A DNA stretch of 60,606 nt, from the IMG/VR virus record IMGVR_UViG_3300037258_000158, positions 1-60,606 of that record, one strand, 5' to 3'. This document shows, piece by piece, positions 6,723 to 28,675 of this stretch. The notes beneath the pieces were generated by a model. The model was given only the letters and a program-made list of their open reading frames with translations, made no database searches and was not told where the DNA came from. Every line of letters begins with the position of its first letter. The stretch's first letter is position 1. The translations under genes were made by a program, and so were the position numbers. This DNA is from a virus.

Positions 6723-6929
6723 GGTTTATACTCCTATCAAGCGCCCCCTTGGCGCACCCATATAGTAATGTGTGCGATTGGGGACAGCACGCTTCTTTAC
6801 TAACAAAGTTAATCAGAGGTTAAATCTGTGTTATAGTGGAAATGGAGCACCTGACAGCGTTCATCCCCCTGGACGTATAGGTCGTTAGGCTCGATGGTGC
6901 TCCACCCACATTCAGCTAAAGGGAAACAG
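6723..6929. promoter_or_regulatory. Divergent intergenic region with leader inverted repeat
   Basis: The left cluster starts on one side and the glycosyltransferase gene on the other. On the plus strand, TTAATC and TTATAG are separated by 16 bases just before 6840, a weak sigma70-like pair. The leader that would follow contains TGGAGCACC (6843-6851) and GGTGCTCCA (6896-6904), a perfect 9-bp inverted repeat enclosing 44 bases, ending 25 bases before the ATG. It could fold into a structured 5' leader. Promoter use is inference. Confidence 0.45.
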
Positions 6930-7649
6930 ATGAAGATCTATATACCTACTCTCGGTAGGGCCGGTCGCGTCAAGACGTTGGATCTACTAGGACACCGTCT
7001 TCGAGACGTTGTCCTCGTGGTTCAGCCCCAAGAAACTACTGACTACCGCGCTGCCTATCCAAATCTCAATATCCAACCGCTTCCTTCAAAGATGCATATC
7101 GGCGAGACACGCAAGTGGATCATGAAGCAAGCTGGTCAGAATCACTGGCAGATGGATGATGATGTCCTTGCCCGGTGCATGGAAGGAGTCAACTTCGTCG
7201 AAGCACTGGAATTGAGGGAACTTCACATTCCTTCAACGCCTCTGGTCGGTTTCGGTCGCCAGTACATGGGAACGCAGGTCTACGAGAAAGGCCGGTTCCA
7301 CAAGAACATGGGAGTCTGGCACATGCTCGGCATCAACTGGAAGCGGATGTCATCCGCTCCAGTTCAGCATTTCTCGCTTTACGAAGACACGGTCATGAAC
7401 ATCCATGCCCGGGAAGCCGGGGGGACCAATGTGGATTATGGTGTCCTGCTTGGAAACGCGTCTTACACGAAACGCGATGGGACTGGCTGTTCCAGCTATC
7501 GGTCGATCGAGGCTATTGAACAGAACATGCGCGAGCTCGTTCTACTCTATCCCAAGTATTGCACCATCGTGCCATCGGATAAACTGACGCAGGGTCTTCC
7601 GGTTGGAAAAACAGTCAAAACTAGCTGGTCAAAGATAAGACCCTTGTAG
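6930..7649 (+). CDS. TAGT-like (GT-A fold) glycosyltransferase, copy 1
   Basis: The 239-residue protein begins MKIYIPTLGRAGRVKTL and has a DDD metal/nucleotide-sugar motif (QMDDDVLARC), a YED segment and a GTGCSSYRS motif. These are the features of the TET/JBP-associated glycosyltransferases described in phages (Iyer et al. 2013), predicted to decorate hydroxymethylated pyrimidines in DNA. A paralog lies in the DNA-modification operon (16.9-17.7 kb), sharing IP-LGR, DDD, ED and G-CS-YR. The ATG follows AAAGGGA. It is the first gene of the plus-strand unit. The acceptor could be modified phage DNA; this is inference. Confidence 0.7.
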   Translation: MKIYIPTLGRAGRVKTLDLLGHRLRDVVLVVQPQETTDYRAAYPNLNIQPLPSKMHIGETRKWIMKQAGQNHWQMDDDVLARCMEGVNFVEALELRELHIPSTPLVGFGRQYMGTQVYEKGRFHKNMGVWHMLGINWKRMSSAPVQHFSLYEDTVMNIHAREAGGTNVDYGVLLGNASYTKRDGTGCSSYRSIEAIEQNMRELVLLYPKYCTIVPSDKLTQGLPVGKTVKTSWSKIRPL

Positions 7650-11298: not shown

Positions 11299-11978
11299 CG
11301 CCGTGACATCTTCAGGTAGTAGTCGGCGGTGAATTTGACATCGTTGTCAATGTCGTCCTGCTTCATCACCCATTCGAGATACCAGCGCGGCACTTCTTTC
11401 CATTGCTGGCCCTTGAACTTGCCGAACCGAACTTTCGTGAGAACGACCGGCATCGTGGACATCAGGAACAGGGCCTCGGCCGTGCGCGTCTCGAGCATTT
11501 TCTCGAGAATGAGCGCCGTTGTCCATGCATCATACAGAGCACGATGTGGAGCGTATCCCTTGATAATCCAGTCGGGCAGCGTAACCCCGAGCCAGTACCG
11601 CAGGATCTGGTTGCTGTGACCCGGTGCGTCGGGCCAGATATGGCTGGCACATCGCCAAGTACAGATCCACTTTCTATCCCGTAGCTGAGGTAGGTATCGC
11701 TTGTCGAATTCGGCGTTATGCGCCGCGATGTACTCCCGCCCGGCCAGAGGCATGTATTCGTAGACCTCGGACAGACTGGCTTCGTTGGCTACCATTTCAT
11801 TGGTGATGTGATGAATGGACATAGCCTCCAGTCCAATAGGGACTGTCGGTTTGACGATCGCGCAGAACGTACCTGTATCTTTCCCTTTGGTTGGAAGAAG
11901 TACGGCCGCGATTTCAACGACCTCGTCCTTGTCGCCCATGCCGGTTGTTTCGGTGTCGATGACTGCGATGTTGTTCAT
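11295..11978 (-). CDS. DnaQ-like 3'-5' exonuclease with DUF3820-like tail
   Basis: The protein is a DEDDh exonuclease: D8-x-E10 in AVIDTETTG, AHNAEFDKRYL and HRALYDAWTTALI supply the acidic residues and the histidine. Such proteins proofread or trim DNA 3' ends. After the nuclease domain (about 1-175), residues 183-210 (VRFGKFKGQQWKEVPRWYL) match the small DUF3820-type module. The ATG overlaps the polymerase stop as ATGA. The polymerase already has its own exonuclease-like domain, so this enzyme may serve nucleotide recycling or recombination. Confidence 0.8.
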   Translation of the reverse strand: MNNIAVIDTETTGMGDKDEVVEIAAVLLPTKGKDTGTFCAIVKPTVPIGLEAMSIHHITNEMVANEASLSEVYEYMPLAGREYIAAHNAEFDKRYLPQLRDRKWICTWRCASHIWPDAPGHSNQILRYWLGVTLPDWIIKGYAPHRALYDAWTTALILEKMLETRTAEALFLMSTMPVVLTKVRFGKFKGQQWKEVPRWYLEWVMKQDDIDNDVKFTADYYLKMSRR

Positions 11979-14017
11979 GCTGCTAAGGCCTCTTCCCATG
12001 ATTTCTTGGCTGAACCCCATCGTTTACCGAATTCGTCGTCTACGCGGACAGGGACTCGCAGTTTGACGACGTTAATCATGATGGACTTTGCTTTGCGAGC
12101 CTGATCTTGGCTCCCGAAACTAAAGTCCAATTCATCATGCATCTGTAGGAGTGGAATAATCTTCTGCCGCCAGCACTCACGCATAGCCATCTTGGTCTGG
12201 CGCGCGGCGCTACCTTGAATGAGTGCATTCATGGATTTATGAGTGAACGCCCTCTTGATCCTACCATTCCACGGATGGTCTGGGTCGGCAACGCGACGCC
12301 TAGCTTCATCCAAAAGACACGGTGCCACGAGGCCTTCATCGTGTCCTCGCTTAACCCACTCATATTCAGCTTCACGATCACGCCAACGTGGTTCCCACCT
12401 ATTGAATCGTACCCGCGCTCCATCTAGTAAGCGGATGTAACCCCGCTTATCAACGAGATTAGAACTAAACTCCATGAGCCTGCGGATGAAAGGAACCGAA
12501 TCATGATATTTCTCCATAATGACTTTTGCTTCGTCGTAGGAGACACCGAGGCTGGCCGCGAGTTTCCAGATCCCCATACCATACGCCAGACCCAGATTAA
12601 TGATCTTGGCTTTCGGTCGTGGCATTCCTGTGAGTTTCGCCACCATTGTATGATAATCGGGCTTTGGATCGTTATTGTAATAGTCCACCGCGACCTCTGC
12701 GCCTGCTACACCGCACAGAGATGCGAAATGAACCGTCAGGCAGGGTTCTTGCTGACTATAATCGAGCGCGCCCCACAATTCTCCATCTTCTGGAAGGAAG
12801 ATGTCGCGAATTATCTTCCCGATTGCCGGATGCTTATCCGGGCTGGTCATCTGCTGAAGCGGAGGATTGCTGTACGCGAACCTAGTCGTTCGCGTACCGC
12901 CACGATCATCTTTGAACTGATGCGGCTCGGCGTGTAATCGGCCCATGTGCGAGTAGCCGAGGATATAGTCGCCGATGAATTTCTTGGCTGCGTCCTGTAT
13001 CTGCAAGACTTTGGACACGCCCTGCGGGAGCCAGTGTTCCCGTTGAACCATCCATTCCGTCTTAAACGAGGCCGTTCCTTGTGGCCTCGTTTTGGATGCA
13101 GGAGTACGAGGAAAAGATACCTGCTCCGCAGTAAATATCTTCTCCAAAAACTTCTCTGATGACAGATCGCTGATGGTGACCTGCCTACCTATCGAGAGTC
13201 TTCGTGATAGGTCGCCTAGTATTTCTTCTCGCTGCCTGAACAGTTCCTTCTGGGCCTGGAGCGCGAAGTCTACGTCGATAGGAATGCCTCTCTTGCGCAT
13301 CTCGAGAACTAAGGGCATTATATCAATCTCCAATTGATATGCCCTTAGTAGGTCATCCTTCTCCATCATAGGATATATCAACTCAAACGCTTCTAGCGTC
13401 GATACTGCGTCACCCTCACCGTAGGGTCCAACGTACCGCGCCGGTAGACGGTAGAGATTCTCCTTGACCTCTCGGTTTGTCTTGGCACCGAAATATGCTG
13501 CCGCTGCATCGATGAGTAGCGCGTCGTCCTTACCGGGTATATCGAGGCGGCGACAGATCGCATCCAGATTGTATTCCATCTGGGTTTCGTCGATGATGTA
13601 CGCCGCCGCCATGACATCTTGAATCCGCTCTGGCGGCTCAAGTCCCCATTCGGCCCATGCCCATCCCATATCGTACGCGGCATTCTGGAACACGATTTCC
13701 AGAACGGACCAATGGTCTTGGACCCATCTGCCAACCGCATCGACATCAAAGTTCTGGGTTTCTGGGTGGCGCATCGGCACATAGATCGCGCCGCCTTTCC
13801 ACGCCATAGATACACCGGCGATATGACCAGCCCGATAGACCCATCCCGGGCCTCGACCTTGAGCCAGCCCATCGTCCTTGGTTTCGCAGTCGTATGCCGC
13901 TCGGCCGACCCGACGGAGATCAGGTAACTCCGTCGGGACAGTCCATTCCGAAGAAGGTGTCAGGAGCGGAAGTTGTCCCGCTCCTGCCGCCTTGGAATAC
14001 TTTCCGCCTTTAGGCAA
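11975..14017 (-). CDS. Family A DNA polymerase (Pol I type)
   Basis: The replicative polymerase, 680 residues. An N-terminal 3'-5' exonuclease-like domain shows AAYDCETKDDG and QNAAYDMGWAW. The polymerase domain has motif A (GALDYSQQEP), motif B (KAKIINLGLAYGMG) and motif C (MHDELDF, near residue 627). No 5' nuclease domain is present, as usual in phages. The start is a TTG with GGAG 7 bases upstream, overlapping the preceding gene. The C-terminal part is standard length. Neighbouring exonuclease, helicase and primase genes complete the replisome. Confidence 0.92.
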   Translation of the reverse strand: MPKGGKYSKAAGAGQLPLLTPSSEWTVPTELPDLRRVGRAAYDCETKDDGLAQGRGPGWVYRAGHIAGVSMAWKGGAIYVPMRHPETQNFDVDAVGRWVQDHWSVLEIVFQNAAYDMGWAWAEWGLEPPERIQDVMAAAYIIDETQMEYNLDAICRRLDIPGKDDALLIDAAAAYFGAKTNREVKENLYRLPARYVGPYGEGDAVSTLEAFELIYPMMEKDDLLRAYQLEIDIMPLVLEMRKRGIPIDVDFALQAQKELFRQREEILGDLSRRLSIGRQVTISDLSSEKFLEKIFTAEQVSFPRTPASKTRPQGTASFKTEWMVQREHWLPQGVSKVLQIQDAAKKFIGDYILGYSHMGRLHAEPHQFKDDRGGTRTTRFAYSNPPLQQMTSPDKHPAIGKIIRDIFLPEDGELWGALDYSQQEPCLTVHFASLCGVAGAEVAVDYYNNDPKPDYHTMVAKLTGMPRPKAKIINLGLAYGMGIWKLAASLGVSYDEAKVIMEKYHDSVPFIRRLMEFSSNLVDKRGYIRLLDGARVRFNRWEPRWRDREAEYEWVKRGHDEGLVAPCLLDEARRRVADPDHPWNGRIKRAFTHKSMNALIQGSAARQTKMAMRECWRQKIIPLLQMHDELDFSFGSQDQARKAKSIMINVVKLRVPVRVDDEFGKRWGSAKKSWEEALAA

Positions 14018-15086
14018 CCCATGCTCCGCGGAATATTTCCTTCAGTTGCATTTCACCTTCGACTCCCGGACGTGGCTCGTAGAACTCCTTGTCAGCATCA
14101 GCCATGCGACCAAAGTCGGATTTCGACACCGTTGCTGAAAGTGGCCTGAACAGTTCCATTCGCTCTTTTTCATCGTATCGGCGCCGATCGACCTGAGCAT
14201 ATTGCCCGGTGACTATAAACCGGGAGATAAGGTCGGGGTCTTTCAGCTTGCGGAACAGTGTAGCACTGATTAGCGGCTTCACCTTCCATGTACCGTCGCC
14301 CTGTTTCGTCCCGGCCTTGGAGTCCCAGTCAGGTTCATGGATAGCCGACTTGGCGATGTGGGCGTCTTTCGTGTGGCCACAGTCCATGCACCGACCGTTC
14401 ATGTAATTTGATCGGTAGCTGCTACAGACCGCACGACCTACGTCGTTCATGGGGAATTCAGCAGCATGGGCCGAGTCGGAGTGATGTCGATTGGAGTCTT
14501 CTCGATTATTTTCAGCATCACGTTTTCGCATCAGTATCACGCGTAAATGATCGCGAGATAAACGACGGTTGGCGGCGTCGAGAATTTTTCGACTTTCTGT
14601 GTCGTCAGGAAAGTTGGTCTGATATCCGTAGGCGATAATGGTTCGTTTGACCTTAGGTCGAGGAATGTTCAATTCCCTTGAAATATCATCATACAGATTA
14701 CTCGGATCAGCGTATGCAATTTGATCGATGGTCATGGGTGAATGACTTTCGCCGAGAAGAGTTTTGGTCTGCGGTCTGCTGCCCGCCATCCGTGACTGTA
14801 TCTCAGCCTCAACCAGAAGAAGGTATTGCCGGAGGTCACGAACTTCGGCCAGCACCGACCCATCAGCACCGTTCGTATCAGCCAGACAGCCGGCGAAGAT
14901 ATCCTGCCCGAACTGGCGCTCGAGAATGTTGTCCAGTCGATCCCACTTACGGACCACCATTGCGAAGGCGAAAACGCCGCCTCGTTTCTTCCAACTACCT
15001 TGGTACGTTGATTCCTTATGCCGAAGAGTCTGGATATCACGTTTCGCGACATCCTCGATAAAGTCCATGTGCTTCATGTCGTGCAT
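14010..15086 (-). CDS. DNA-metabolism protein with Nmad1/MazG-like N-terminus and zinc motif
   Basis: The first 100 residues (RHKESTYQGSWKKRGGVFAF, VRKWDRLDNIL, LAEVRDLRQYLLLVEAEI) form a helical domain recalling DUF1599/Nmad1 and MazG-like nucleotide-metabolism domains, in which K-E-x2-Y...W, KWDRL and DL-x2-Y are hallmarks. The middle has LPYDDISRELN-type DNA-binding-like sequence and the latter part a C-x2-Y...C-x2-CGH-x4-H zinc motif. The combination is not one I can name. It lies between the polymerase and a dNMP-phosphatase-like gene. Confidence 0.5.
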   Translation of the reverse strand: MHDMKHMDFIEDVAKRDIQTLRHKESTYQGSWKKRGGVFAFAMVVRKWDRLDNILERQFGQDIFAGCLADTNGADGSVLAEVRDLRQYLLLVEAEIQSRMAGSRPQTKTLLGESHSPMTIDQIAYADPSNLYDDISRELNIPRPKVKRTIIAYGYQTNFPDDTESRKILDAANRRLSRDHLRVILMRKRDAENNREDSNRHHSDSAHAAEFPMNDVGRAVCSSYRSNYMNGRCMDCGHTKDAHIAKSAIHEPDWDSKAGTKQGDGTWKVKPLISATLFRKLKDPDLISRFIVTGQYAQVDRRRYDEKERMELFRPLSATVSKSDFGRMADADKEFYEPRPGVEGEMQLKEIFRGAWVA

Positions 15087-15610
15087 GTATTGAACTCCTT
15101 CATGTGGTTGACGATCCGTTCACTGACGCGCTTACCTTCGCCAGTACAAAACCGATCCAGTTGTTCTGTCATGTCGAAGATAGCCTGAGCTGTTCGTTCA
15201 ACGATAGGGATCGCCAGCTTATTTCCCATCGCTAATTCCTGTTTGCCGTACTCCCACATTTCCAGAAGATCGCATATCTTGACACGAATCTTCATTTCAT
15301 CGCCAATAGTCACTTTCGGCGCGCCCATGTGAAAGAGGCCGTGGTCTTCGAGTTTATCCATTTCCCTCTTGATTAATTCGTTCTTGGCTTTGACGGGAAA
15401 TGGCAGGTCCCCACAAGATATTTCGCCGGCGTCATGGTAAAGGATGAACGTATAGACATCCTTGTCCGGTGCCCCGAATAACTGTGTGAAGATACGCATG
15501 ATCTGCCATGTGTGCTCCGCGACAGTCTGTTCACGAAGCACCGGCCAAGTGTGATATCGCTTGACCTGACCTGCGAATCGCTGACAGCCGGTAATTTGAT
15601 CGGCGTTCAT
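15074..15610 (-). CDS. HD-domain dNMP 5'-nucleotidase, YfbR-like
   Basis: The 178-residue protein has the HD phosphohydrolase residues H33 (QTVAEHTW), H59-D60 (YHDAGE) and a later D, plus an N-terminal arginine, as in the YfbR family that dephosphorylates deoxynucleoside monophosphates. Next to thymidylate synthase-family and dCTP deaminase genes, it may remove dTMP or dCMP so that modified nucleotides dominate the pool. The ATG overlaps the stop of the TS-family gene. The preferred substrate cannot be read from sequence. Confidence 0.75.
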   Translation of the reverse strand: MNADQITGCQRFAGQVKRYHTWPVLREQTVAEHTWQIMRIFTQLFGAPDKDVYTFILYHDAGEISCGDLPFPVKAKNELIKREMDKLEDHGLFHMGAPKVTIGDEMKIRVKICDLLEMWEYGKQELAMGNKLAIPIVERTAQAIFDMTEQLDRFCTGEGKRVSERIVNHMKEFNTCTT

Positions 15611-16596
15611 TTGGCCCTCCGGCTGAGAAATTGCTTCGCAGCCCATTTCCAGTCTTCAGCCTTGATCGCATGTAGAGCAACGACCGCAGCCGACGCACCG
15701 TCGCTCCGCCAGACCTTGGCGACATTGAGCATTGGCTTCGCCACTTCGGGGAAGAAGCGGTTCGCATAGATGTGTTCCGAAACACCACTCATGAAGGCGA
15801 ATAGGTCTTTGTCGAAGCGCCCGAAGTCATCGACGAGCGGCACTGTATGAACACGATTCAACCTATACGGGTCGTCCATTCCAGTGCCATCTTTCATGAT
15901 CTTTTCAAACACATCGACGTAGGCGTGGAAGTTGTTGGAAAGCTGATACAGCTTTCCTACTCCTACACCTATCCCCGCCGCGAGGTACTCTTGAAGAATG
16001 CTGAAATGAACAGCATTAGCGCCATACGCGCCCCAGATAATATCGTTGGATCGGCAGCATACTGTGATATCCAGTGCGCCATTGACTATCCTCGGGTAGA
16101 CGTGAGTGTTGCAGGGAAGATCCTTGGGTTCCGGTATATCGAGATCCTGGTAGTCCCGAAGTTCACACAGATCGTAGGTCGGATCCCACATTGTAAGGAC
16201 CACCCGGCGATCATCTGGGTTCTTCGTCAAACGATCCACAATTACCTTGAGTTGGTCCATATCGAAATGGTTTCGCCACCGATGACCATAAGCACCCCAG
16301 AGCAGACCGTTCGTTTCGGCGAACCGAGATGAGAAGTCTTTCACGAACTGATCAAGCCAACGGGCATCCTGTCCCCCGTTGAGCATCCACAATGACTCCA
16401 TGAGGTGGAAGAAGGGATTTGCATCCCTTGCCCATGAAAACAGAACCCGTTCCGTCGGTTTATCGTACACCGACATGACTGGGTGGTCACAGACCAGCAC
16501 ATCGCCGGCTCGTGACTTCTGCAACTTCCCATAGTCTCGCAAATACAGACACCCTTCCGCGAAGACATGGTTAACGTTCCGTCCCTTAATCAACAT
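15607..16596 (-). CDS. Thymidylate synthase-family enzyme, likely dUMP hydroxymethylase
   Basis: This enzyme has the TS fold: nucleophile C162 in LPCNTHVYP and phosphate-binding R182 in CCRSNDIIWGAYGANAVHFS. The asparagine in GANAVH (N194) sits where TS and dUMP enzymes have Asn; dCMP hydroxymethylases have Asp, so dUMP is the likely substrate. The loop differs from canonical TS (PFN replaced by YGAN; PCH replaced by PCN), as in phage hydroxymethylases. With the downstream modification genes, 5-hydroxymethyl-dUMP synthesis is the best reading; ordinary dTMP synthesis is the alternative. GGAG lies 6 bases before the chosen ATG. Confidence 0.75.
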   Translation of the reverse strand: MLIKGRNVNHVFAEGCLYLRDYGKLQKSRAGDVLVCDHPVMSVYDKPTERVLFSWARDANPFFHLMESLWMLNGGQDARWLDQFVKDFSSRFAETNGLLWGAYGHRWRNHFDMDQLKVIVDRLTKNPDDRRVVLTMWDPTYDLCELRDYQDLDIPEPKDLPCNTHVYPRIVNGALDITVCCRSNDIIWGAYGANAVHFSILQEYLAAGIGVGVGKLYQLSNNFHAYVDVFEKIMKDGTGMDDPYRLNRVHTVPLVDDFGRFDKDLFAFMSGVSEHIYANRFFPEVAKPMLNVAKVWRSDGASAAVVALHAIKAEDWKWAAKQFLSRRAK

Positions 16597-16597
16597 T

Positions 16598-16921
16598 CTA
16601 TTCTCCATCCTTGAAGCCTGGAAGAAAACGAACACCGACGGTGTTCACGATAGCAGGTCGCCACGCCATTCCACAGTGCTGGCAAGCATGGGTGTGATGT
16701 GGCTTCGATGCAAACTCCCCTTCGTCAATGTGACGTTCCCCGCATAATGGGCAAGTGAGGAGCATCGGTATGACCGGCGGCACCGAATAAAAATCACCTT
16801 TGCGACTCCAATGTAGTCCGCAAATCGTAACAATGTCGTCATCAATGACATTGTGATATAACCATCTGGTTACGTCATTAGCAGTTGAAACGATATTTTC
16901 TGGTGGATCTCTATACACCAT
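16598..16921 (-). CDS. Zinc-ribbon phage protein, 107 aa
   Basis: A widespread small phage protein type. The core CPLCGERHIDEGEFASKPHH is followed by HACQHCGMAWRP, a C-x2-C...C-x2-C zinc ribbon. The N-terminal part is helical. The role of these ribbon proteins is unknown. It lies between the glycosyltransferase and TS-family genes of the modification operon, but also occurs in phages without such genes, so linkage may be incidental. Confidence 0.75.
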   Translation of the reverse strand: MVYRDPPENIVSTANDVTRWLYHNVIDDDIVTICGLHWSRKGDFYSVPPVIPMLLTCPLCGERHIDEGEFASKPHHTHACQHCGMAWRPAIVNTVGVRFLPGFKDGE

Positions 16922-17714
16922 ATCGATATGCCTTCTTCCATTGCACCGTCACCTCAGTGCGAGTCCCAAACTTCCCCCGGTCAGTCTTGTTTTCCTTCTG
17001 GCGCAAACTCACGAGGCCGGGGTGGAGTTCTGCCAGCTTGTGCGCGGAGCGCTCATGCAACTCGTGTGTCCGGTACGTTGAACAGCCGCCCGACGCATTC
17101 GTCATCTGTTGATCGTGCGCCCAATAGGCGAAGACCACGTTATGGAATCCCTTGCGCAGAAGCTGGAGTTGCACGTCGAAATCCTCCATGACTTCTACAC
17201 GACCATGTTCGCACGCATTGAATTCCTTGACCCGGAATGCGAGTGCCCGTAAGGCTCGCGTATCGGTCTGGGCCATTGGCGCTGGTCCTACGCCGAAGCG
17301 GTTGTTGCCCTCGCGGCTGCTGATCGACACCTGAGCGTAGGTGCCCAGATATTCTTCGACCGTCTGCATCATCTCCGTGAACTCGGTATCGTTTACTGCA
17401 AGAAGATGATAATCATCGGCGCTGACGTGTCGAAAGAATTTTAGGTCATCATCGAGCATGATAAACTTCGGTTCGCCAATTTGGTCAGCAAACCGCCCGA
17501 TGCCTTGTCGTACCCCAGATATTCCGCCACCTGGGTCTTCCACGAAACTCACTCCTTTATCGACGTATTTTTGGAGATAAGATTTATACCGTGGAATATC
17601 TTTTCCCGGCGTTATGATCCAGGTATTTGCCAGATATGTCGGTGGAATCTGGGCCAGTGTGCGAGCGCCGACGACACCGGGACGTCCCAGACTTGGTATG
17701 AAGATTGGAATCAT
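16911..17714 (-). CDS. TAGT-like (GT-A fold) glycosyltransferase, copy 2
   Basis: The 267-residue protein starts MIPIFIPSLGRPGVVGAR, has LDDDLKFFRH as the DxD-type motif, VMEDFDVQL, and GGCSTYRT near the C-terminus. These match the TET/JBP-associated glycosyltransferases. A paralog with the same motif order is at 6.9 kb. The ATG overlaps the radical SAM stop (ATGA), so the two enzymes are co-translated, arguing for a shared pathway on modified thymine. A sugar or other nucleotide-activated group would be the donor; neither donor nor acceptor is provable here. Confidence 0.72.
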   Translation of the reverse strand: MIPIFIPSLGRPGVVGARTLAQIPPTYLANTWIITPGKDIPRYKSYLQKYVDKGVSFVEDPGGGISGVRQGIGRFADQIGEPKFIMLDDDLKFFRHVSADDYHLLAVNDTEFTEMMQTVEEYLGTYAQVSISSREGNNRFGVGPAPMAQTDTRALRALAFRVKEFNACEHGRVEVMEDFDVQLQLLRKGFHNVVFAYWAHDQQMTNASGGCSTYRTHELHERSAHKLAELHPGLVSLRQKENKTDRGKFGTRTEVTVQWKKAYRYGV

Positions 17715-18697
17715 TTCTCCCATTCCCTTTTGATTGGTTGCGTGTATGGTGAACCAGAGATTGCTTTCAGCAGAGCAGCCTCGCTTTCACGGTCAGGATC
17801 TGGCATCTGCTCTTTACCCAATGGGTCTGGTAGAAGTCCCACTCGATAGGATAAGGCGTCACATCCTTGACAAGGTGCGAATGACCGGTCACCCTTGACA
17901 AGATGTCTTCGAGCTGCGTCCATCGCCGTAGAATCCCAGACTGCGACAAGTCCGTCTGTGACAATGTTTCCACACTTGAAGACGCCACGCCAGTCGTTGC
18001 AACATATCGCCACATTGCCGTCCCACCTGATTGACATTTCGCGGAAAGGTTTCGCACATCGTTTATGCTTTGCCACAAGAGACGGCGGGAACGCCGCCCC
18101 TGCATGATTGTTGAGGCTACTGTGGGTTCCGGAATTGGACGCGCTTATATCGCGGATATAGCTGATCAACCCAGATCCGCGATCTAACCGACGATGCGGA
18201 TTACCACGGGCATCTCCAGGATAATCGCATACCAGAACATCATGGCCGTCCGCTTTAAGTTTCGCTTCCAGTTCATCTTGTATCTCCCTGACTTTGCCGA
18301 TGATTTGCACATCTTGGTAGTCGTCGAGCGCCAAGATCGTCAACCCTGCATTGAATAATGCAGGGATAGTGATCATAGGTCCACCGTGCATGAGCAGACC
18401 GCCGCCGTTGCTGGTCACCATCAACTGATTCTTGGGCATGTGCGCCCGAGCTATGCGGATCATTTCCACGTAAGACGGATGCATGGTCGGTTCGCCATGC
18501 ATGGCAAATTCAACTCGTGCTGTCCATTTCTCCTGCGTCACCTGATCACCTAACGAAGCTAGGGTATCGGGCGACATGAACTTGAAGTTCTTATTCTTGT
18601 ATTCACGTATCCCGCGCAGGCCGCAGAAAGAGCAATAGAGATTGCATCCTTCCGATAACTCAACCTGAATCGCATACGGGGGAGTCTGGGTTCTCAT
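17711..18697 (-). CDS. SPASM-type radical SAM enzyme
   Basis: The 328-residue protein has the 4Fe-4S site C18-x3-C22-x2-C25 (CNLYCSFC), then GEP and other radical SAM barrel segments. The C-terminal region carries C213, C231-C232, C241, C275 and C278 (ICCNDWRG, PCQGCD), the pattern of a SPASM auxiliary iron-sulfur domain. Radical SAM enzymes rearrange amino-acid-derived groups on 5-hydroxymethyluracil in phage DNA hypermodification (Lee et al. 2022). Its operon mates support that role. A peptide or nucleoside substrate is the alternative. Confidence 0.8.
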   Translation of the reverse strand: MRTQTPPYAIQVELSEGCNLYCSFCGLRGIREYKNKNFKFMSPDTLASLGDQVTQEKWTARVEFAMHGEPTMHPSYVEMIRIARAHMPKNQLMVTSNGGGLLMHGGPMITIPALFNAGLTILALDDYQDVQIIGKVREIQDELEAKLKADGHDVLVCDYPGDARGNPHRRLDRGSGLISYIRDISASNSGTHSSLNNHAGAAFPPSLVAKHKRCAKPFREMSIRWDGNVAICCNDWRGVFKCGNIVTDGLVAVWDSTAMDAARRHLVKGDRSFAPCQGCDALSYRVGLLPDPLGKEQMPDPDRESEAALLKAISGSPYTQPIKREWEK

Positions 18698-18705
18698 GTT
18701 GTCTC

Positions 18706-18921
18706 CTACGTTCGCGGTGTACCATCAGGATGACGAGTGATGGCGACATTCGCCCACATAGCATTCGAACGATGAGCACGGATTACAAAGGTCTTGTCTG
18801 GTCCGTCAGGTAATTCTGCATCCAAGACATCGTTGAACGCCTTGGCGGCTGCTCGTACACGAGCCATCTTTGCAATCTGTTCTTCGGTGGGTTGAAGATA
18901 TTCGTAAGTTGAGGGATGCAT
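18706..18921 (-). CDS. Candidate Acb2/Tad1-like cyclic-nucleotide sponge
   Basis: The 71-residue helical protein reads PTEEQIAKMARVRAAAKAF, then a short turn, then VIRAHRSNAMWANVAITR. This two-helix pattern with a late 'AR...MWA-x-AI' helix matches the Acb2/Tad1-type hairpin family (small phage proteins that bind cyclic nucleotides and block CBASS or Thoeris). The match is by pattern, not by alignment; binding residues cannot be checked. The ATG chosen has AAAGGAA at 7-8 bases; an ATG 18 bases further upstream is the alternative. It lies inside the modification operon, a fitting place for an immune-evasion gene. Confidence 0.5.
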   Translation of the reverse strand: MHPSTYEYLQPTEEQIAKMARVRAAAKAFNDVLDAELPDGPDKTFVIRAHRSNAMWANVAITRHPDGTPRT

Positions 18922-18974
18922 ACCGGGATTCCTTTCCATGAGTAGACCCGCAGTGAGCAGATCTGCTCATAGTA

Positions 18975-19631
18975 TTACCCAGATATGTGGTGGAGGTAAA
19001 GTGTCTCTAATCGTTGGGCGAGTGCTAGATTGACATGCGCTCCTTCCCACCGAACAGCAAAATCATTGCGAGATGGGCACACGAACCAGAAGACCCTATT
19101 CTTGACATACCATTGAAACGAATGTAGAGGTTTGAGCCCTAGGGCGCTCAAGACCTCGCGGTCTACAATCATCACAATACGACCGCGCAGAGATTTCCAA
19201 AGATCCGGTGCTGCGACCTTCGCCTCTCCCATCATCTTGGAGAAGTCATCATCATAATTTCGCACCATGCACCGGCGATCGAACGCCCTCAGATAGTCTG
19301 ACTGACTGACACCTTTCTCAGCCAGCATCTCCCATAGGGTCCCCCCAACGCCTTTGGTCGGATAATAGATGTGAGTCCAAGGCTGATGGTAATCATGGAA
19401 GCCGAGGAGCACCGGTCGTTTCCTCATTGTGACTGGACCGAATCGTTGAAGAGTCAGTTTATTGATCTGGTCTTCGACGTCTGGAGGAATCTTCTTACGG
19501 CCCGATAATAGCTTGTCAATATCTTTTCTTGGATATGATAAATAGAACGAAAGCACATTCGCTAACTCCTCATTCCAACGACATGCGGGGAATAGGCGAT
19601 ATGCTTTCGTTATCAGTTCATTCTTATTCAT
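18975..19631 (-). CDS. UDG-superfamily-like protein with altered catalytic motif
   Basis: The 218-residue protein aligns by eye with phage UDG-like proteins. Motif I (usually GE-P) reads VLLGFHDYHQPW; then KGVGGTLWEMLAEKGVSQSD, YLRAFDR, LRGRIVMIVDREVLSALGL, and a degenerate HPS-x-N motif, FVCPSRNDFAVRW, before a closing helix. Because both key motifs are altered, glycosylase activity is doubtful; it may bind modified bases or serve as a synthesis enzyme. The stop-start overlap with the hypermodification gene suggests joint function. The UDG link is inference from order and spacing of motifs. Confidence 0.45.
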   Translation of the reverse strand: MNKNELITKAYRLFPACRWNEELANVLSFYLSYPRKDIDKLLSGRKKIPPDVEDQINKLTLQRFGPVTMRKRPVLLGFHDYHQPWTHIYYPTKGVGGTLWEMLAEKGVSQSDYLRAFDRRCMVRNYDDDFSKMMGEAKVAAPDLWKSLRGRIVMIVDREVLSALGLKPLHSFQWYVKNRVFWFVCPSRNDFAVRWEGAHVNLALAQRLETLYLHHISG

Positions 19632-20557
19632 CCGCGATATCTGTAACGAGCCTTCGGCTTGCCTTCATCAGTACGTGTCCGTTCGTACTTGTCGAACTCG
19701 CAGAGCGTATGTTCGATTTCACGCATCTCGAGTGGCGTCCATCCTTGACGTTGCGGCCAGAATTGGCGATCTCTTGACATTTTCAAGAGATCGCGCATTT
19801 CTTCAATCATGGCAGACTTGGACACTTTCTTCTGGACAGCGCGATAGCTCACACCGCGACCCGTAACGCGAGCGAGGCCACGTTCCGCGCCGGGTCCCGG
19901 ATTCGCCCATGTCATGATGTCGGGCGCACATCCTAATAGATCCGTGTGCCTGAGATCGGTCACGACCTCATATGAAATGAAGTCGCCGCTGTACGGGTAT
20001 TGCCTGAACCAATCCCAGACGCTCTGAAGGCTCTCACGACCCTCTAGGCAACTCTCAGCCACGGCCCGCCAGTGCCGTCCACCATATACTTCCGACGAGT
20101 TCCAGACCGTCCGTATGCAAGCCAGAACACCATCCAACTTGGGCATCCCTTGCTGCCCAAGAATGATATACGCGCCGTTCACATACGGACCCTCGCCGCA
20201 CATCAGTTTGATAGATTCGCGCATCTTGCCGGTGTCGCCGGTCTCCAAGAAATAGTCCCAGGAACTGCGACCATCATCAAGGAATCCTTGACTGAAGATA
20301 GCTTCGCCGGTCGTGGGTCTGTTGAACCAACGGAAGGCGATTGTTGCGAGCAACACCTCTGGGGTTGCTCTCATCGGTTCACGGACATGGTCCTTGAACC
20401 ACTGTGTCACACGATCCAATTCACGGTACACGTTCGTGAAACTGTAGGTCTGCAAGATAGGATCATCGGTCCAAGGCCACGGCTTCCCGGCCTTACGGTC
20501 CAAGTATATTTGGTGTCGCTTTCTGGCAAATTCAAAGAATTCGTTTGCGTGGTTCAT
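19628..20557 (-). CDS. Thymine hypermodification protein (HMUDK_hel/aGPT-PPlase family)
   Basis: The 309-residue protein starts with NEFFEFARKRHQIYLDRKAG, PWTDDPILQTYSFTNVYREL and DRVTQWF, a signature I associate with the 5-hydroxymethyluracil DNA kinase helical domain and alpha-glutamyl/putrescinyl-thymine pyrophosphorylase families (Iyer et al. 2013). Characterised members attach amino acids to 5-hydroxymethyluracil in phage DNA (amino acid:DNA transferases, Lee et al. 2022). Which clade this is cannot be decided without alignment. No P-loop is present, so it is not the kinase itself. GGAG precedes the ATG at 8 bases. Its neighbours are a UDG-like gene and dCTP deaminase. Confidence 0.75.
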   Translation of the reverse strand: MNHANEFFEFARKRHQIYLDRKAGKPWPWTDDPILQTYSFTNVYRELDRVTQWFKDHVREPMRATPEVLLATIAFRWFNRPTTGEAIFSQGFLDDGRSSWDYFLETGDTGKMRESIKLMCGEGPYVNGAYIILGQQGMPKLDGVLACIRTVWNSSEVYGGRHWRAVAESCLEGRESLQSVWDWFRQYPYSGDFISYEVVTDLRHTDLLGCAPDIMTWANPGPGAERGLARVTGRGVSYRAVQKKVSKSAMIEEMRDLLKMSRDRQFWPQRQGWTPLEMREIEHTLCEFDKYERTRTDEGKPKARYRYRG

Positions 20558-20720
20558 TGATATATCTCCGGTTGTTTTCGTCATCCTCTTTAAGCATGGA
20601 ATAGTCTACGTGTCCTTCACAGGTGTAGAACGCATCTCCTTGATCGGTTAAATGATAGAATATCATTTCTCCCCAACAAGGATATTTTTCTCCACCCACG
20701 AATTTGAAGAGGCAGCTCAC
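20532..20720 (-). CDS. Hypothetical small protein, 62 aa
   Basis: Function is unknown. The product begins with a short basic/aromatic section (SCLFKFVGGEKYPCWGEM) and has an acidic C-terminal half. Three cysteines (C3, C15, C34) do not form a clear metal site. The GTG start overlaps the stop of the dCTP deaminase gene (GTGA), and its tail overlaps the hypermodification gene by 26 bases, so it is translated with the modification set. Confidence 0.6.
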   Translation of the reverse strand: MSCLFKFVGGEKYPCWGEMIFYHLTDQGDAFYTCEGHVDYSMLKEDDENNRRYINEPRKRIL

Positions 20721-21175
20721 CCTCGTGCTCCCTGTGGTCCTTCTTCCTGATCCTGATACTTGCCTTCGTAGGCTCTTCCCCCTTCGACGTAATGGAACGC
20801 GATCTGGGCAATCGGCATACCTTTCTTCAGGCGTACGAAACCCGAATTATGATATAGAAGTTCCAGAGTAAGGAAACCGCGCCAGCCGGGGTCGATCAGT
20901 GTGTTTTGGACAGTTAGTCCAAGACGCACTAATGAACTCTTGTCATGCACTATGCCAAGCATGTATCCGGGCATTTTGAATTTCTCGAACGTAGATGCAA
21001 GAACCATTCCATCGTGTCGAGTGATCCGTAGTTCTTGATCGAGACGCACATCATAGCTACCGAAGCCGAGCCCATAACTCAACTTCATGCCATTCCAGTC
21101 AAACGTTGACCTTTCACAGAAGGGCTCGACCACCTTGGTCTCCATCTGCGCCAGATATTCAGCTCCATAGATCAT
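20717..21175 (-). CDS. dcd: dCTP deaminase
   Basis: The 152-residue protein is a trimeric dUTPase/dCTP deaminase-fold enzyme: GSYDVRL, HDKSSLVRLGLTVQNTL, IDPGWRGFLTLEL and PIAQIAF are family motifs. The glutamate in LTLELLYHN corresponds to the deaminase catalytic Glu rather than the dUTPase Asp, so it converts dCTP to dUTP; bifunctional deaminase-diphosphatase activity is possible. It would feed dUMP to the TS-family hydroxymethylase. AAAGGAG lies 6 bases before the ATG. A terminator separates it from the upstream gene. Confidence 0.85.
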   Translation of the reverse strand: MIYGAEYLAQMETKVVEPFCERSTFDWNGMKLSYGLGFGSYDVRLDQELRITRHDGMVLASTFEKFKMPGYMLGIVHDKSSLVRLGLTVQNTLIDPGWRGFLTLELLYHNSGFVRLKKGMPIAQIAFHYVEGGRAYEGKYQDQEEGPQGARG

Positions 21176-21190: not shown

Positions 21191-21222
21191 AAAACAAAAA
21201 GGACCGCCCTTTCGAGCGATCC
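21191..21222 (-). terminator. Rho-independent terminator upstream of dCTP deaminase
   Basis: On the minus strand, GGATCGCTC and GGGCGGTCC form a 9-bp stem (two G-U pairs) with a GAAA tetraloop, followed by TTTTTGTTTT. This is a textbook intrinsic terminator, placed between the gene with repeated-domain copy 2 and the dCTP deaminase gene. It should reduce read-through into the modification operon, so either partial termination or a separate promoter governs the downstream genes. Confidence 0.85.
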
Positions 21223-21249
21223 CTTTTGCACTTCCCATCGCGGGGGAAG

Positions 21250-23569: not shown

Positions 23570-23823
23570 CACACATGCTCCACAGATTCGATCCACTTTT
23601 CCAAGTTCTCGACTTCTTTCTGTAGGTCTGCGCCTGTGATCTTCACGCCGTTGATCGCTGCTGCCCGGACAACCATGTCCAGCAACGTGATCCGCAGTTG
23701 CATCCTCGGGGTTATATGGAACTTCGGGCCGCACAGTTCTACCAAGACTTCTTGCACGTTTGACCGACCTTGCGGCGGACGTGACTTATCACCATCATCC
23801 GTAGGCTGATAACCGTCCTTCAT
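23569..23823 (-). CDS. Hypothetical phage protein, 84 aa
   Basis: Function is unknown. The N-terminus is polar and flexible (MKDGYQPTDDGDKSRPPQGR), the rest helical (MQLRITLLDMVVRAAAING, LQKEVENLEKWIESVE). It overlaps the primase-polymerase gene at its ATG and DUF4031 at its stop. It may be an accessory factor to primase or polymerase, based on position only. Confidence 0.65.
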   Translation of the reverse strand: MKDGYQPTDDGDKSRPPQGRSNVQEVLVELCGPKFHITPRMQLRITLLDMVVRAAAINGVKITGADLQKEVENLEKWIESVEHV

Positions 23824-25340
23824 ATTGGGGTTTCCTTCATTTTCGGCAAGTCCAACTTCACAGGTGTCTCGAACATATCGCCCGGCACCCAGAGTACATT
23901 AACACCACGACTTTTGATTTGAAAAAACGATGTACCACCGATTTTCTGGATAGTGGAACTGACTTTGTTTCGGCCCCACTCGAATTTAGCTCGGGATAAG
24001 TGATCCATTAGATCTCTTAACCTGAAATAAAACCGACGACCTTCTTCATCTTCCCAAGGCTTGCCGCTGAGGATATCGTCCTTTGATTCTGCCCGATAAC
24101 GATTCATACAAAACTCTTGTAGAAGTTCGACGAAGTGCCCTTCAATGGATGCATCGGGCGGCGCCGAAATCTTGTTCACGTTCTGCATGGCCTCGCCAAG
24201 AATCTCGAGCCATGTGTCCGGCTTCAGCCGCTGGTAGATCGTATGCACCGCTTCCATACATCGGCGCTGAAATTTGTTATAGTCCTGAAGCTGTTCCGTT
24301 GTCAATTCGATACGCTGACCATCTACATCAAGAAACCACAGTGGCGGATCGGTCTCCAAAACAGATATTCCCCCGATCGCCGGAAACTTCGCACCGTTTC
24401 CTCCATTCCCAACCCCATGTCGTCTGGTCCTACAAAGCGATGAATTGCAATGAGCATTGATCGGCGCATCCTTACACTTGTATTCAAAACTCTTTTTCTT
24501 AAGGTTCTTGATGACTTCCTGGACTTCATCGGACGGAAGTGGTGGAGACATGAACTGACGATTCATATTCTCCAGATGACCTTCCCATTCATCGCCATAT
24601 TTCTTCTTGGCGAATGTTCCCAGAGCGAAGAGACCGGCGTTGCGGGAACCGGGGGTGAACCCTACTGTGGTCAGGTACTGGAGGCATGGAGGCCCGTCCT
24701 TGAACTCATCGTTGAGCTTGACCGTACCGGCGCTCTTCTGCAGAGGCTGGCGATGCTCGTCGGCATACTCGATGAACTCCGCCATTGTCATAGCGGCTGC
24801 GGTCTTCTTGACTCCGTAACGGTCCGTGCGGTTGCCTGCGAAGTACGGCATGTTCAGCCAGTTGCCGACATCACCCCTTTCTGCTAGGATTTGGGTCTGT
24901 TTGGGGAATATCTCACTTCCCCCAAATCCTAGCAGACCGGCCATTTCAGTCAACACGTCACGAAGATCGGCTGCATGAGCTGGCTGACTTAAGAACAGGA
25001 ACAGATGCAAGCCGCCCGACTTCGTTCTACACGCGACCAGAGGCAACTTCCGCTTTTCTATTTCCTCAACTACCGCCGCCATGTTCAGGTCATAACGGTC
25101 AATGTCTATGCAGCCCCACGAGCATGTGCCATCCGGACGAATAGGAATGACGCCAAGAGACCGCTTCCCTTCTAAATGCGCCTGCCACAGTTCAAGCGTA
25201 ACAGGTTCGCGGATAGTGCGAGCGGTAGCCTTGATCTCTAGCTTACCGCCCTTCTGCATACTCTTATCTAATCGGTCATAGGTCCCATAAGCATCAGGGA
25301 ACCCATCGAACAATGCCATGAAAGTTCGTGCGTATTCCAT
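23820..25340 (-). CDS. Primase-polymerase (AEP superfamily)
   Basis: The 506-residue protein has the archaeo-eukaryotic primase signature: CSWGCIDIDRYDLN (D-x-D) near residue 75, KSGGLHLFLFL with the conserved His, and an IFPKQTQILAERGDVGNWL segment, resembling the primase module of the TOTE family. A long C-terminal region (from about 200) carries helical segments and a zinc-like C-x6-H-C-x4-C region (CKDAPINAHCNSSLC). No helicase P-loop is present, so unwinding comes from other genes. It initiates DNA synthesis for the family A polymerase. Confidence 0.82.
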   Translation of the reverse strand: MEYARTFMALFDGFPDAYGTYDRLDKSMQKGGKLEIKATARTIREPVTLELWQAHLEGKRSLGVIPIRPDGTCSWGCIDIDRYDLNMAAVVEEIEKRKLPLVACRTKSGGLHLFLFLSQPAHAADLRDVLTEMAGLLGFGGSEIFPKQTQILAERGDVGNWLNMPYFAGNRTDRYGVKKTAAAMTMAEFIEYADEHRQPLQKSAGTVKLNDEFKDGPPCLQYLTTVGFTPGSRNAGLFALGTFAKKKYGDEWEGHLENMNRQFMSPPLPSDEVQEVIKNLKKKSFEYKCKDAPINAHCNSSLCRTRRHGVGNGGNGAKFPAIGGISVLETDPPLWFLDVDGQRIELTTEQLQDYNKFQRRCMEAVHTIYQRLKPDTWLEILGEAMQNVNKISAPPDASIEGHFVELLQEFCMNRYRAESKDDILSGKPWEDEEGRRFYFRLRDLMDHLSRAKFEWGRNKVSSTIQKIGGTSFFQIKSRGVNVLWVPGDMFETPVKLDLPKMKETPI

Positions 25341-26843: not shown

Positions 26844-27229
26844 GAAGTGCTCCCTGTTTTCGTGGGCAGGCATTGTGCCACCGACTAGGTCCGGGTGCAA
26901 AGCGGGGATATTGGTTGCGTCTTGTACGCGGGCGAGCGCGAGACCAAAATTTTGCAGCATCGCGCCTACGCGCGCGAGAAACCAATACTTGAACAGCTAA
27001 CCCGTTGTGCGGGCGATATAATTTGCTTTCTGTCCGTACATTGGTTTGGCCTCCCGTACATTGCTTTTGACCGTCTGAAGGCTTAAAGCTCATAAAAACC
27101 GACGGATGCCGAACGAGCTTTAACTTCAAAAGTAATATCCCGGTTTATATGTATATAGAAGTATGGGCTGCGAAATTATCGTCACGCCGAGCTCAGTGGT
27201 ACTATACTCCCCGGTCAAGGGAGTGGTTC
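26844..27229. promoter_or_regulatory. Divergent promoter region of replication and SNF2 genes
   Basis: No gene is seen. For the plus strand, TTGACC and CATAAA stand 18 bases apart near 27068-27098, an acceptable promoter for the SNF2-type gene. On the minus strand, CAATGTACGG occurs twice exactly 20 bases apart (27034-27063), two helix turns, as in an operator. A CCCG/CGGG hairpin lies nearby. TATACT just before the SNF2 gene is a second -10-like site. All assignments are by eye. Confidence 0.45.
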
Positions 27230-28675
27230 ATGTATCAGGAAAAAACGAAGTCATTTCAGCATCAGGTAGCTGCCAGAGGCAAGTCCCGTCGTAAGCGGGG
27301 TTTCGCCTTTTTCATGGAGATGGGCACTGGCAAGACCAAGGTCGATATTGATGAATCATGTGAACTATACGTTGATAAAGAAATTGACATATGGATCATC
27401 ATAGCTCCGAAAGGTGTCTATTCAAACTGGCCTGACGTCGAGTTTCCCGTACACATGCCTGACCCTATTAGGGACGCTGCGGTGATCGGTAAATGGGGGG
27501 CGGGTGCCAATGCGGCCCGCCAGCTTGAGAGGCTCTTGAAACCGTCTGAGAGCTTCAGGATACTCATAATAAACGTGGAGGCCTTTAGCGCCGGTGGCCG
27601 AGCAACCGCCTACTGCGAGCAGTTAATCAAAACTGCTCGTCGTGGCGTCAAAATCACTGTCGATGAAAGTCCAACGATCAAGAACGTTGGATCACGGCGT
27701 ACCCGTGAGATCGTGTGCCTTGGCAAGATGGCGAAGTATAAACGAATCCTAACCGGGAGCCCTGTACTCAATTCCCCGCTTGACCTGTACGCTCAGTTTG
27801 CGTTTTTGGATGAGAAATTATTGGGTTTCTCATCCTATTATTCTTTCCGCGCGCGCTATGCGATATTGCGGAAGATAGACTTCGGTGGGCGAAAGGTACA
27901 GGTCGTGGTAGGATTTCGTGAGACCGAGGATCTATCGAAAAAGATCACTCCGCATTCTTATCGGGTACTAAAATCACAGTGCCTTGATCTACCGCCCAAG
28001 ATTTATGTTCAACGGGAAGTGGGGCTAACCGATCAGCAGGCCCGAATGTATAAGGAACTGCTGAACAACGCTACGACCAAGATCGATGAACTTGGGCCGC
28101 ATGTCACGGCAACTGAAGTGATTGTACAGATCACCCGCCTGCATCAATTGGTCTGCGGTCATATCGTCGATGAAGAAGATAATGTCCATGCGATAGACAA
28201 TAATCGGCTGAGTACCTTGATGGAGGTCTTGAGTGAAACGAGCGAGAAGGCGGTCATCTGGTCACGGTACAGATTTGATCTTGCTAAGATCGTTGAAGCC
28301 ATATCAAAGGAATATGGTGAGACATCTATTGTCCAATACCACGGAGGCGTTAGTGATGACGATCGCAAGACCGCGATCAACCGATTTCAAGCGGATCCAA
28401 CCTGCCGGTTCTTTGTTGGAAATGCTGCGACGGCCGGGAGGGGGCTGACGCTCACAGCCGCTGGCGTGGTGATCTACTATTCCAACGATTTCAGCTTGGA
28501 TAACCGAATCCAGTCAGAAGACCGGGTTCATCGCCAAGGCCTCACCAAGTCCGTAACGTATGTGGACTTGGTGACGCCTAAGACGATTGACATGAAGGTA
28601 TTGAAGGCATTGAGGAATAAGATCAACATCAGCTCCGCCATCATGGGTGATGGAGCTAAGGCTTGGTTGATCTAA
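27230..28675 (+). CDS. SNF2/SF2-type DNA helicase
   Basis: The 481-residue protein has Walker A in FFMEMGTGKTKVDI, a VDESPTIKN DExx-type motif II, LTGSPVLNSPLDLYAQF (SNF2-like motif III), and C-terminal helicase motifs FVGNAATAGRGLTLTAA and QSEDRVHRQGLT (motif VI). It would translocate on or unwind DNA, or remodel protein-DNA complexes during replication. The ATG was chosen for GGGAG at 6 bases; an upstream in-frame ATG at 27149 would add 27 residues. Bases 27471-27493 recur at 10585. It converges on the next gene with a 4-base overlap. Confidence 0.85.
   Translation: MYQEKTKSFQHQVAARGKSRRKRGFAFFMEMGTGKTKVDIDESCELYVDKEIDIWIIIAPKGVYSNWPDVEFPVHMPDPIRDAAVIGKWGAGANAARQLERLLKPSESFRILIINVEAFSAGGRATAYCEQLIKTARRGVKITVDESPTIKNVGSRRTREIVCLGKMAKYKRILTGSPVLNSPLDLYAQFAFLDEKLLGFSSYYSFRARYAILRKIDFGGRKVQVVVGFRETEDLSKKITPHSYRVLKSQCLDLPPKIYVQREVGLTDQQARMYKELLNNATTKIDELGPHVTATEVIVQITRLHQLVCGHIVDEEDNVHAIDNNRLSTLMEVLSETSEKAVIWSRYRFDLAKIVEAISKEYGETSIVQYHGGVSDDDRKTAINRFQADPTCRFFVGNAATAGRGLTLTAAGVVIYYSNDFSLDNRIQSEDRVHRQGLTKSVTYVDLVTPKTIDMKVLKALRNKINISSAIMGDGAKAWLI

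Follow-up and report, generated by a model that had tools for sequence, protein, structure and literature searches.

A phage operon predicted to glycosylate 5-hydroxymethyluracil in DNA, with a candidate radical enzyme for the attached sugar

Background

What base does a phage make when the genes for a thymidylate synthase (TS) homologue, a glycosyltransferase and a radical S-adenosylmethionine (SAM) enzyme stand together in one operon? The question is raised by the IMG/VR virus record IMGVR_UViG_3300037258_000158, the whole of which, 60,606 bp in length, was analysed and is called the window below. The record carries a 127-bp direct repeat at both termini and therefore appears to be a single, complete and circular assembly (60,479 bp). 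Its minus strand encodes, in the order of transcription, a dCTP deaminase, a PF18723 protein, orf218, orf77, the radical SAM enzyme, a TAGT glycosyltransferase, the small protein Zn107, the TS homologue, a YfbR-like HD protein, orf358 and a family A DNA polymerase.

A first-pass annotation had drawn five of these genes (15607-21175) together as a single route to a hypermodified thymine. All five were confirmed on the minus strand by profile searches, the deaminase matching PF22769, its neighbour PF18723, the radical SAM protein PF04055 and PF13186, the glycosyltransferase PF20691 and the TS homologue PF00303; every profile match of these genes exceeds its curated cut-off except that of the deaminase to TIGR02274 (90.2 bits, cut-off 92.8). 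We favour, with moderate confidence, the reading that the operon leads to 5-hydroxymethyldeoxyuridine (5-hmdU) in DNA, which is glycosylated and whose sugar is then oxidised or epimerised by radical chemistry.

The thymidylate synthase homologue

The TS homologue (15607-16635, minus strand; PF00303, E = 5.5e-19; PHROG 5131, 5.6e-97) is about 42% identical to the enzymes of phages M6, Pam3 and Epa5. Among enzymes of known function, its best phmmer scores are with hydroxymethylases of the SPO1/M6/ViI/phiW-14 type (SPO1 112 bits, ViI 99, phiW-14 69); E. coli ThyA reaches only 27 bits, and at 1e-3 there was no match to T4 gp42. The altered active-site surroundings that had been noticed at first pass were borne out by alignment with reference enzymes: serine stands in the place of Trp80, asparagine in that of His147 (Cys-His becoming Cys-Asn) and cysteine in that of Gln165. 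The tryptophan is likewise gone, and the asparagine likewise present, in the four reference dUMP hydroxymethylases (SPO1, M6, ViI and phiW-14). C146, R166, S167, D169, N177, H207 and Y209 are retained, including the dUMP-binding Asn177, which T4 dCMP hydroxymethylase does not have. By its sequence, then, the protein is a dUMP hydroxymethylase, as had been proposed, with 5-hydroxymethyl-dUMP as its predicted product.

The radical SAM enzyme

The gene at 17711-18697 (minus strand) encodes a twitch-type radical SAM protein of the SPASM family (PF04055, 5e-8; PF13186, 7e-11). A profile of its family, compared with proteins of solved structure, matched BtrN at 1e-17, eleven orders of magnitude better than the next match. 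An AlphaFold2 model (predicted local distance difference test score, pLDDT, 84.5; predicted template modelling score 0.88) gave the same answer in Foldseek, with BtrN first (4e-13; template modelling score 0.61 by query and 0.80 by target) and SpeY second (7e-7). Cys18, Cys22 and Cys25, which form the CX3CX2C motif, and Cys214, Cys232, Cys276 and Cys279 are invariant in 21 family members, and the latter four align with the auxiliary-cluster cysteines of BtrN. BtrN carries out the two-electron oxidation of 2-deoxy-scyllo-inosamine and holds its auxiliary 4Fe-4S cluster on four cysteines (PMC9012708). Because profile, modelled fold and aligned invariant cysteines all point to BtrN, a sugar-alcohol dehydrogenase or epimerase is the best guess for the window enzyme, with its substrate inferred. 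Homology to the radical SAM enzyme of M6 was sought and none was found. A search of 50,697 phage records found no relative of the gene and one of 84,980 species genomes a single relative, but IMG/VR gave 114 confirmed matches.

Glycosyltransferases accompany the radical SAM gene

A set of 84 IMG/VR loci with the gene was fetched; they were chosen by likeness to the window radical SAM gene and are not a random sample. Removal of redundancy left 52 loci at 90% and 27 at 60%. Profile searches of the 84 loci found a glycosyltransferase in 77, a TS homologue in 75, PF18723 in 70, a kinase in 2 and a PF18724-type protein in 0, the corresponding numbers for the 52 loci being 46, 45, 43, 1 and 0; at the 60% level a glycosyltransferase is present in 24/27. 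A control survey was anchored on PF18723 instead (80 loci). Here, a glycosyltransferase was found in all 8 loci that have the radical SAM gene, as against 7 of the 72 that do not (Fisher p 2e-7).

Seven of the 84 loci had no glycosyltransferase call. In four of these (L012, L028, L132 and L140) the contig ends beside the radical SAM gene, and in L142 a PF00534-like protein adjoins it. The remaining two share the same open reading frame (ORF; L165, 1326-2051, and L169, 6264-6989), which immediately precedes the radical SAM gene and encodes an FkbM sugar-type methyltransferase that possibly O-methylates a DNA-borne sugar.

The glycosyltransferases are of more than one kind: TAGTs occur in 60 loci, 28 have members of two other families, and in some both types are present; a PF00534-like protein can also take this place. 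The two non-TAGT families were called glycosyltransferases from sub-threshold Pfam matches and motifs; in particular, the neighbours of about 340 residues gave only sub-threshold Pfam matches as GT-B proteins and no PDB profile match. That families so different and non-homologous replace one another argues that the glycosyltransferases and the radical SAM gene are linked by more than a common gene order. The source of the hydroxymethyl group can also be exchanged. Three loci (L021, L029 and L031) have the same radical SAM family and a TAGT, and differ from the window in having neither TS nor PF18723; each has a relative of TET/JBP (PF12851, 1.7e-19 in L031), which presumably makes the hydroxymethyl group on DNA, in place of a dUMP hydroxymethylase. 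A bacterial locus from Actinomadura (L190) combines the radical SAM family with a GT-B protein and a TET relative, again without PF18723. Since the pair of radical SAM enzyme and glycosyltransferase goes with either hydroxymethyl route, its chemistry would follow the hydroxymethyl step and be independent of the amino-acid pathway discussed below.

The window itself encodes two proteins above the PF20691 cut-off, while M6, PaMx11, Pam3 and Epa5 have 0 TAGTs. The first, next to the radical SAM gene (16911-17723, minus strand), is a GT-A protein (PF20691, 1e-12; PHROG 842, 1.8e-41) whose DDD motif at residues 91-93 is conserved in 96-100% of 67 relatives. The second lies upstream, far from the operon and on the opposite strand (6894-7649, plus strand; PF20691, 3.6e-12, 47 bits), with an MDDDV motif that was read directly. 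Its presence suggests two sugars or two specificities. A phmmer search of the PDB with the TAGT gave nothing useful, and single-sequence scans of IMG/VR with the TAGT and with orf218 found no relatives. The finding of a TAGT, together with the glycosyltransferase company of the radical SAM gene, upholds the earlier proposal of glycosylation in what is predicted to be a 5-hmdU-based DNA modification operon.

Genes that would tailor sugars also lie close by in some relatives, the FkbM methyltransferase among them. Another encodes a fusion of a cytidylyltransferase with the C-terminal domain of a mannose-6-phosphate isomerase and lies between PF18723 and the GT-B gene (L024, 5129-5998; homologues at 5123-5986 of L027 and in L020 and L018), hinting at a phage-made sugar nucleotide and consistent with sugar chemistry. 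Between the GT-B and radical SAM genes of L142 (6283-6996), a 234-residue protein bears a GTGSSGTKY motif that resembles, by eye, a sulfotransferase P-loop; it found no support in Pfam.

A proposed pathway

In the pathway that we propose, the dCTP deaminase (20717-21175, minus strand; PF22769, 8.9e-18; a KSSLVRLGL motif and an LEL stretch were read directly) would enlarge the dUTP/dUMP pool. The TS homologue would then place a folate-derived methylene on dUMP and release it by hydration as 5-hydroxymethyl-dUMP, competing dTMP perhaps being removed by the YfbR-like HD 5'-deoxynucleotidase, a probable deoxynucleoside monophosphate phosphatase (15074-15646, minus strand; PF12917, 1.5e-9) whose gene adjoins that of TS in M6, Pam3 and many relatives. 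Kinases, probably those of the host, would phosphorylate the product, and the 5-hmdUTP would be used by the phage polymerase. The family A polymerase that adjoins the cassette (11975-14017, minus strand; PF00476, 6e-35) is a conserved neighbour, likewise in M6 and its relatives. After replication, one or both TAGTs would glycosylate the 5-hydroxymethyl group or extend its first sugar by a second, and the PF18723 protein would probably help to find or flip the base. Finally, the BtrN-like enzyme would take a hydrogen atom from a carbon of the sugar, its auxiliary 4Fe-4S cluster accepting an electron, to leave a keto or epimerised sugar. The steps up to the use of 5-hmdUTP by the polymerase are predicted from strong homology and the glycosylation from homology and co-occurrence; the radical step is put forward on modelled fold and co-occurrence.

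Several points weigh against this pathway. The whole of it is predicted from sequence and models and not from chemistry. The TS homologue may yet act as a true thymidylate synthase. Those TAGTs whose activity has been measured act on 5-hydroxymethylcytosine (hmC) that is glucosylated already, supplying its second glucose (PMC13216743, PMC13390438), so that the transfer of a first sugar is assumed here. Identity to BtrN is only 15-18%, which makes a dehydrogenase and an epimerase indistinguishable. Four loci (L008, L009, L053 and L057) combine a P-loop kinase gene with radical SAM and GT-B-like genes, a mixed configuration that makes a phosphorylated branch possible in relatives, perhaps with a different base. 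As to PF18723, the family takes its name from the kinase, which is missing here, and 51/80 PF18723 loci have neither a kinase nor a glycosyltransferase nearby.

Alternative explanations

The alternative that survives best is a plain glycosylated 5-hmdU, to which the TAGTs add one or two sugars while a free sugar nucleotide, and not the DNA-bound sugar, would be what the radical SAM enzyme produces or modifies. It calls for an identical gene set, sugar-nucleotide genes are present in some relatives, and LuckyBarnes, a phage in culture, combines TS and PF18723 with two TAGTs and lacks PF18748, the phage collection that includes it having yielded no radical SAM relative. Against this, BtrN and SpeY are radical SAM enzymes that act on a cyclitol or on an assembled glycoside, and the radical SAM gene is flanked by DNA-modifying genes. 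Neither consideration is decisive, and we regard a plain glycoside as unlikely while giving it real weight.

An amino-acid-derived thymine in the manner of M6 and ViI, in which an amino acid put on by the PF18723 protein would undergo rearrangement by the radical SAM enzyme and then glycosylation by the TAGT, is distinctly improbable. PF18723 is indeed common to the window phage, M6, ViI and PaMx11, and a radical SAM gene is part of the M6-like cassette, which comprises a hydroxymethylase, Nmad5, aGPT-PPlase1, a kinase, the radical SAM enzyme, a pyridoxal phosphate (PLP) enzyme and aGPT-PPlase2 (PMC9476957). In Pfam terms, the kinase is PF18748 and the aGPT-PPlase2 protein is PF18724, the amino acid:DNA transferase. 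The window genome has no match to the 5-hmdU DNA kinase family PF18748, which is present in M6, Pam3, Epa5 and ViI, nor to PF18724, present in M6, PaMx11, Pam3 and Epa5, and no relative of the M6-type radical SAM or PLP enzyme at E values up to 10. A hidden kinase was also sought there: the PF18748 search, a scan for Walker A motifs and a kinase hidden Markov model (HMM) of our own, taken to E values of 10, all came back empty, there is no small P-loop ORF, and the convincing Walker A motifs are confined to a helicase and the terminase. Among relatives, PF18724 is absent from 22/22 radical-SAM-bearing records tested, and its HMM is unmatched in 84/84 loci.

The reading of PF18723 as an amino-acid transferase was rejected as a default, since gp46, the structurally solved 5-PmdU glycinyltransferase of PaMx11 (8z2m/8z2n), belongs to PF18724 and shares 53% identity with M6 gp51, while the PF18723 protein of that phage is gp50. 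As PF18748 and PF18724 are both missing here, PF18723 is no evidence for amino-acid attachment. Thus, the amino-acid reading of the operon product is not supported. The new permutation of amino-acid attachment, radical rearrangement and glycosylation that had been envisaged keeps its glycosylation and loses its other two parts: the kinase and the transferase are absent from the whole genome and from nearly all radical-SAM-bearing relatives, and the rearrangement was modelled on the M6 enzyme, whose profile matches nothing in the window genome, where the enzyme is BtrN-like and accompanied by glycosyltransferases.

What remains of the earlier proposal for the PF18723 protein itself (19628-20584, minus strand; 1.4e-46) is its membership of the modification families, at 159.6 bits against a cut-off of 25. 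This all-helical protein of the HMUDK_hel/aGPT-PPlase1 type is a predicted 5-hmdU-DNA-associated partner. Its AlphaFold2 model (pLDDT 92) found only weak matches among solved folds, to PaMx11 gp46 (8z2n/8z2m, E about 0.1) and OGG1 (E about 0.6). The family is absent from SPO1, whose DNA contains plain 5-hydroxymethyluracil (5-hmU), and present in LuckyBarnes, which has no PF18748. A role solely as partner of a kinase was considered and rejected, 51/80 PF18723 loci being without any P-loop ORF nearby; a distant kinase elsewhere in those genomes is possible, the two genes of ViI lying about 49 kb apart. Many of these 51 loci (within L052-L131) combine TS and PF18723 close to PolA and show neither a kinase nor a glycosyltransferase in the vicinity. 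It may be, then, that PF18723 serves 5-hmdU phages more generally than its name of kinase helical domain implies, and recognition of DNA or of the base is suggested. A 12-bp inverted repeat (GCGATCTCTTGA...TCAAGAGATCGC) lies within the gene, at 19766-19794.

It is also conceivable, and in our view hardly likely, that the base is the target of the radical SAM enzyme, at the 5-hydroxymethyl carbon or the ring, glycosylation being a separate and parallel decoration. The enzyme is accompanied by a source of hydroxymethyl-pyrimidine, either TS or TET, in 48/52 non-redundant loci. However, glycosyltransferase company is about as frequent (46/52), a glycosyltransferase is present in just 7 of the 72 PF18723 loci that lack the radical SAM gene, and the nearest folds work on sugar-like alcohols. 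Least credible of all is an ordinary thymidylate synthase beside glycosyltransferases that serve host-surface or virion glycans, the DNA being unmodified: the TS homologue does belong to PF00303 and surface glycans are often the targets of such enzymes, but the active site is of the hydroxymethylase type, PF18723 and PolA are linked across many phages, and TET/JBP takes the place of TS in sister cassettes.

Other genes in and around the operon

Beyond the second TAGT, the analysis added orf218, orf77, Zn107 and the YfbR-like HD gene to what had been described in or beside this stretch. orf218 (18975-19631, minus strand) is, by phmmer and alignment, a homologue of M6 gp48, of its counterpart in L009 and of a family of about 150 residues in sister cassettes. 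Relatives (L009, L055, L133, L136 and M6 gp48) have the uracil-DNA-glycosylase-like motifs GMNNP and HPSG; the window protein has lost both and has about 70 extra N-terminal residues. M6 gp48 scores 18.7 bits against PF03167, below the cut-off, and a profile search of the PDB with the orf218 family matched no solved structure. A uracil-DNA glycosylase assignment, which would draw on motifs alone, and these in relatives, is at best tentative and was not adopted. orf77 (18706-18939, minus strand), a small gene read directly, has no homologue among the fetched loci, and Zn107 (16598-16921, minus strand) is a small protein with four zinc-ligand-like cysteines that gave sub-threshold zinc-ribbon or Lar-like matches only.

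A terminator-like hairpin (21194-21229, minus strand) immediately precedes the dCTP deaminase gene and may mark one end of the transcription unit. Near the cassette are also an SNF2-type helicase (27149-28675, plus strand) and a homologue of a TOTE-type archaeo-eukaryotic primase (23820-25340, minus strand).

Relation to known systems and significance

The cassette is closest in outline to that of the M6/YuA type (Pseudomonas phage M6; SN1, PMC9476957), with which it shares the hydroxymethylase homologue (42%), PF18723, the HD nucleotidase, the adjacent PolA and the gp48 homologue, and from which it differs in having two TAGTs and a BtrN-like radical SAM enzyme instead of the kinase, PF18724, the PLP enzyme and the M6-type radical SAM enzyme. 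Pelagiphage clusters with TS, aG/PT-PPlase1 and a putative beta-glucosyl-HMC-alpha-glucosyltransferase (PMC9599517) have TS, PF18723, a nucleotidase and a TAGT-like transferase near PolA as the window does, but no radical SAM gene is mentioned there, and the chemistry is not taken beyond a broadened functionality. The Brevibacterium phage LuckyBarnes (NC_047851), whose gene set was given above, differs in the absence of the radical SAM gene and in a far more divergent TS. The BtrN and SpeY dehydrogenases, for their part, belong to aminoglycoside biosynthesis, whereas the window enzyme is phage-borne and linked to DNA-modifying genes.

The TAGTs of T2 and T6, beta-glucosyl-HMC-alpha-glucosyltransferases, share PF20691 with those of the window. 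In T6-like phages TAGTs add the second glucose (PMC13390438); here the expected base is 5-hmU and not 5-hmC, and an alpha- or beta-glucosyltransferase for the first glycoside is not known. Solitary TAGTs were found in 288/753 phage genomes and flagged as candidate novel transferases (PMC13216743). The literature searched does not mention a radical SAM partner for DNA glycosyltransferases; Iyer 2013 and Lee 2018/2022 lay outside its coverage, and priority is not established. The earlier suggestion that the final base could be undescribed finds support, for a sugar-decorated and radical-altered 5-hydroxymethyluracil, itself a prediction, appears to be chemically undescribed so far.

More tentatively, and with rather more reserve than for the window operon, we suggest that a widespread and so far uncultured group of phages has the sugar on 5-hydroxymethyluracil oxidised or epimerised in place by a radical SAM enzyme of the aminoglycoside type, which together with a glycosyltransferase would form a module plugged into two unrelated hydroxymethylation routes (dUMP hydroxymethylase or TET/JBP). 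The finding bears on the role of solitary TAGTs and on that of PF18723 where the kinase is absent, and the cassettes are compact enough for reconstitution in vitro. If the proposal is true, radical sugar chemistry would be added to the post-replicative modifications of DNA, and DNA could bear keto- or epi-sugars, which would be chemically addressable and would stand in the way of host nucleases.

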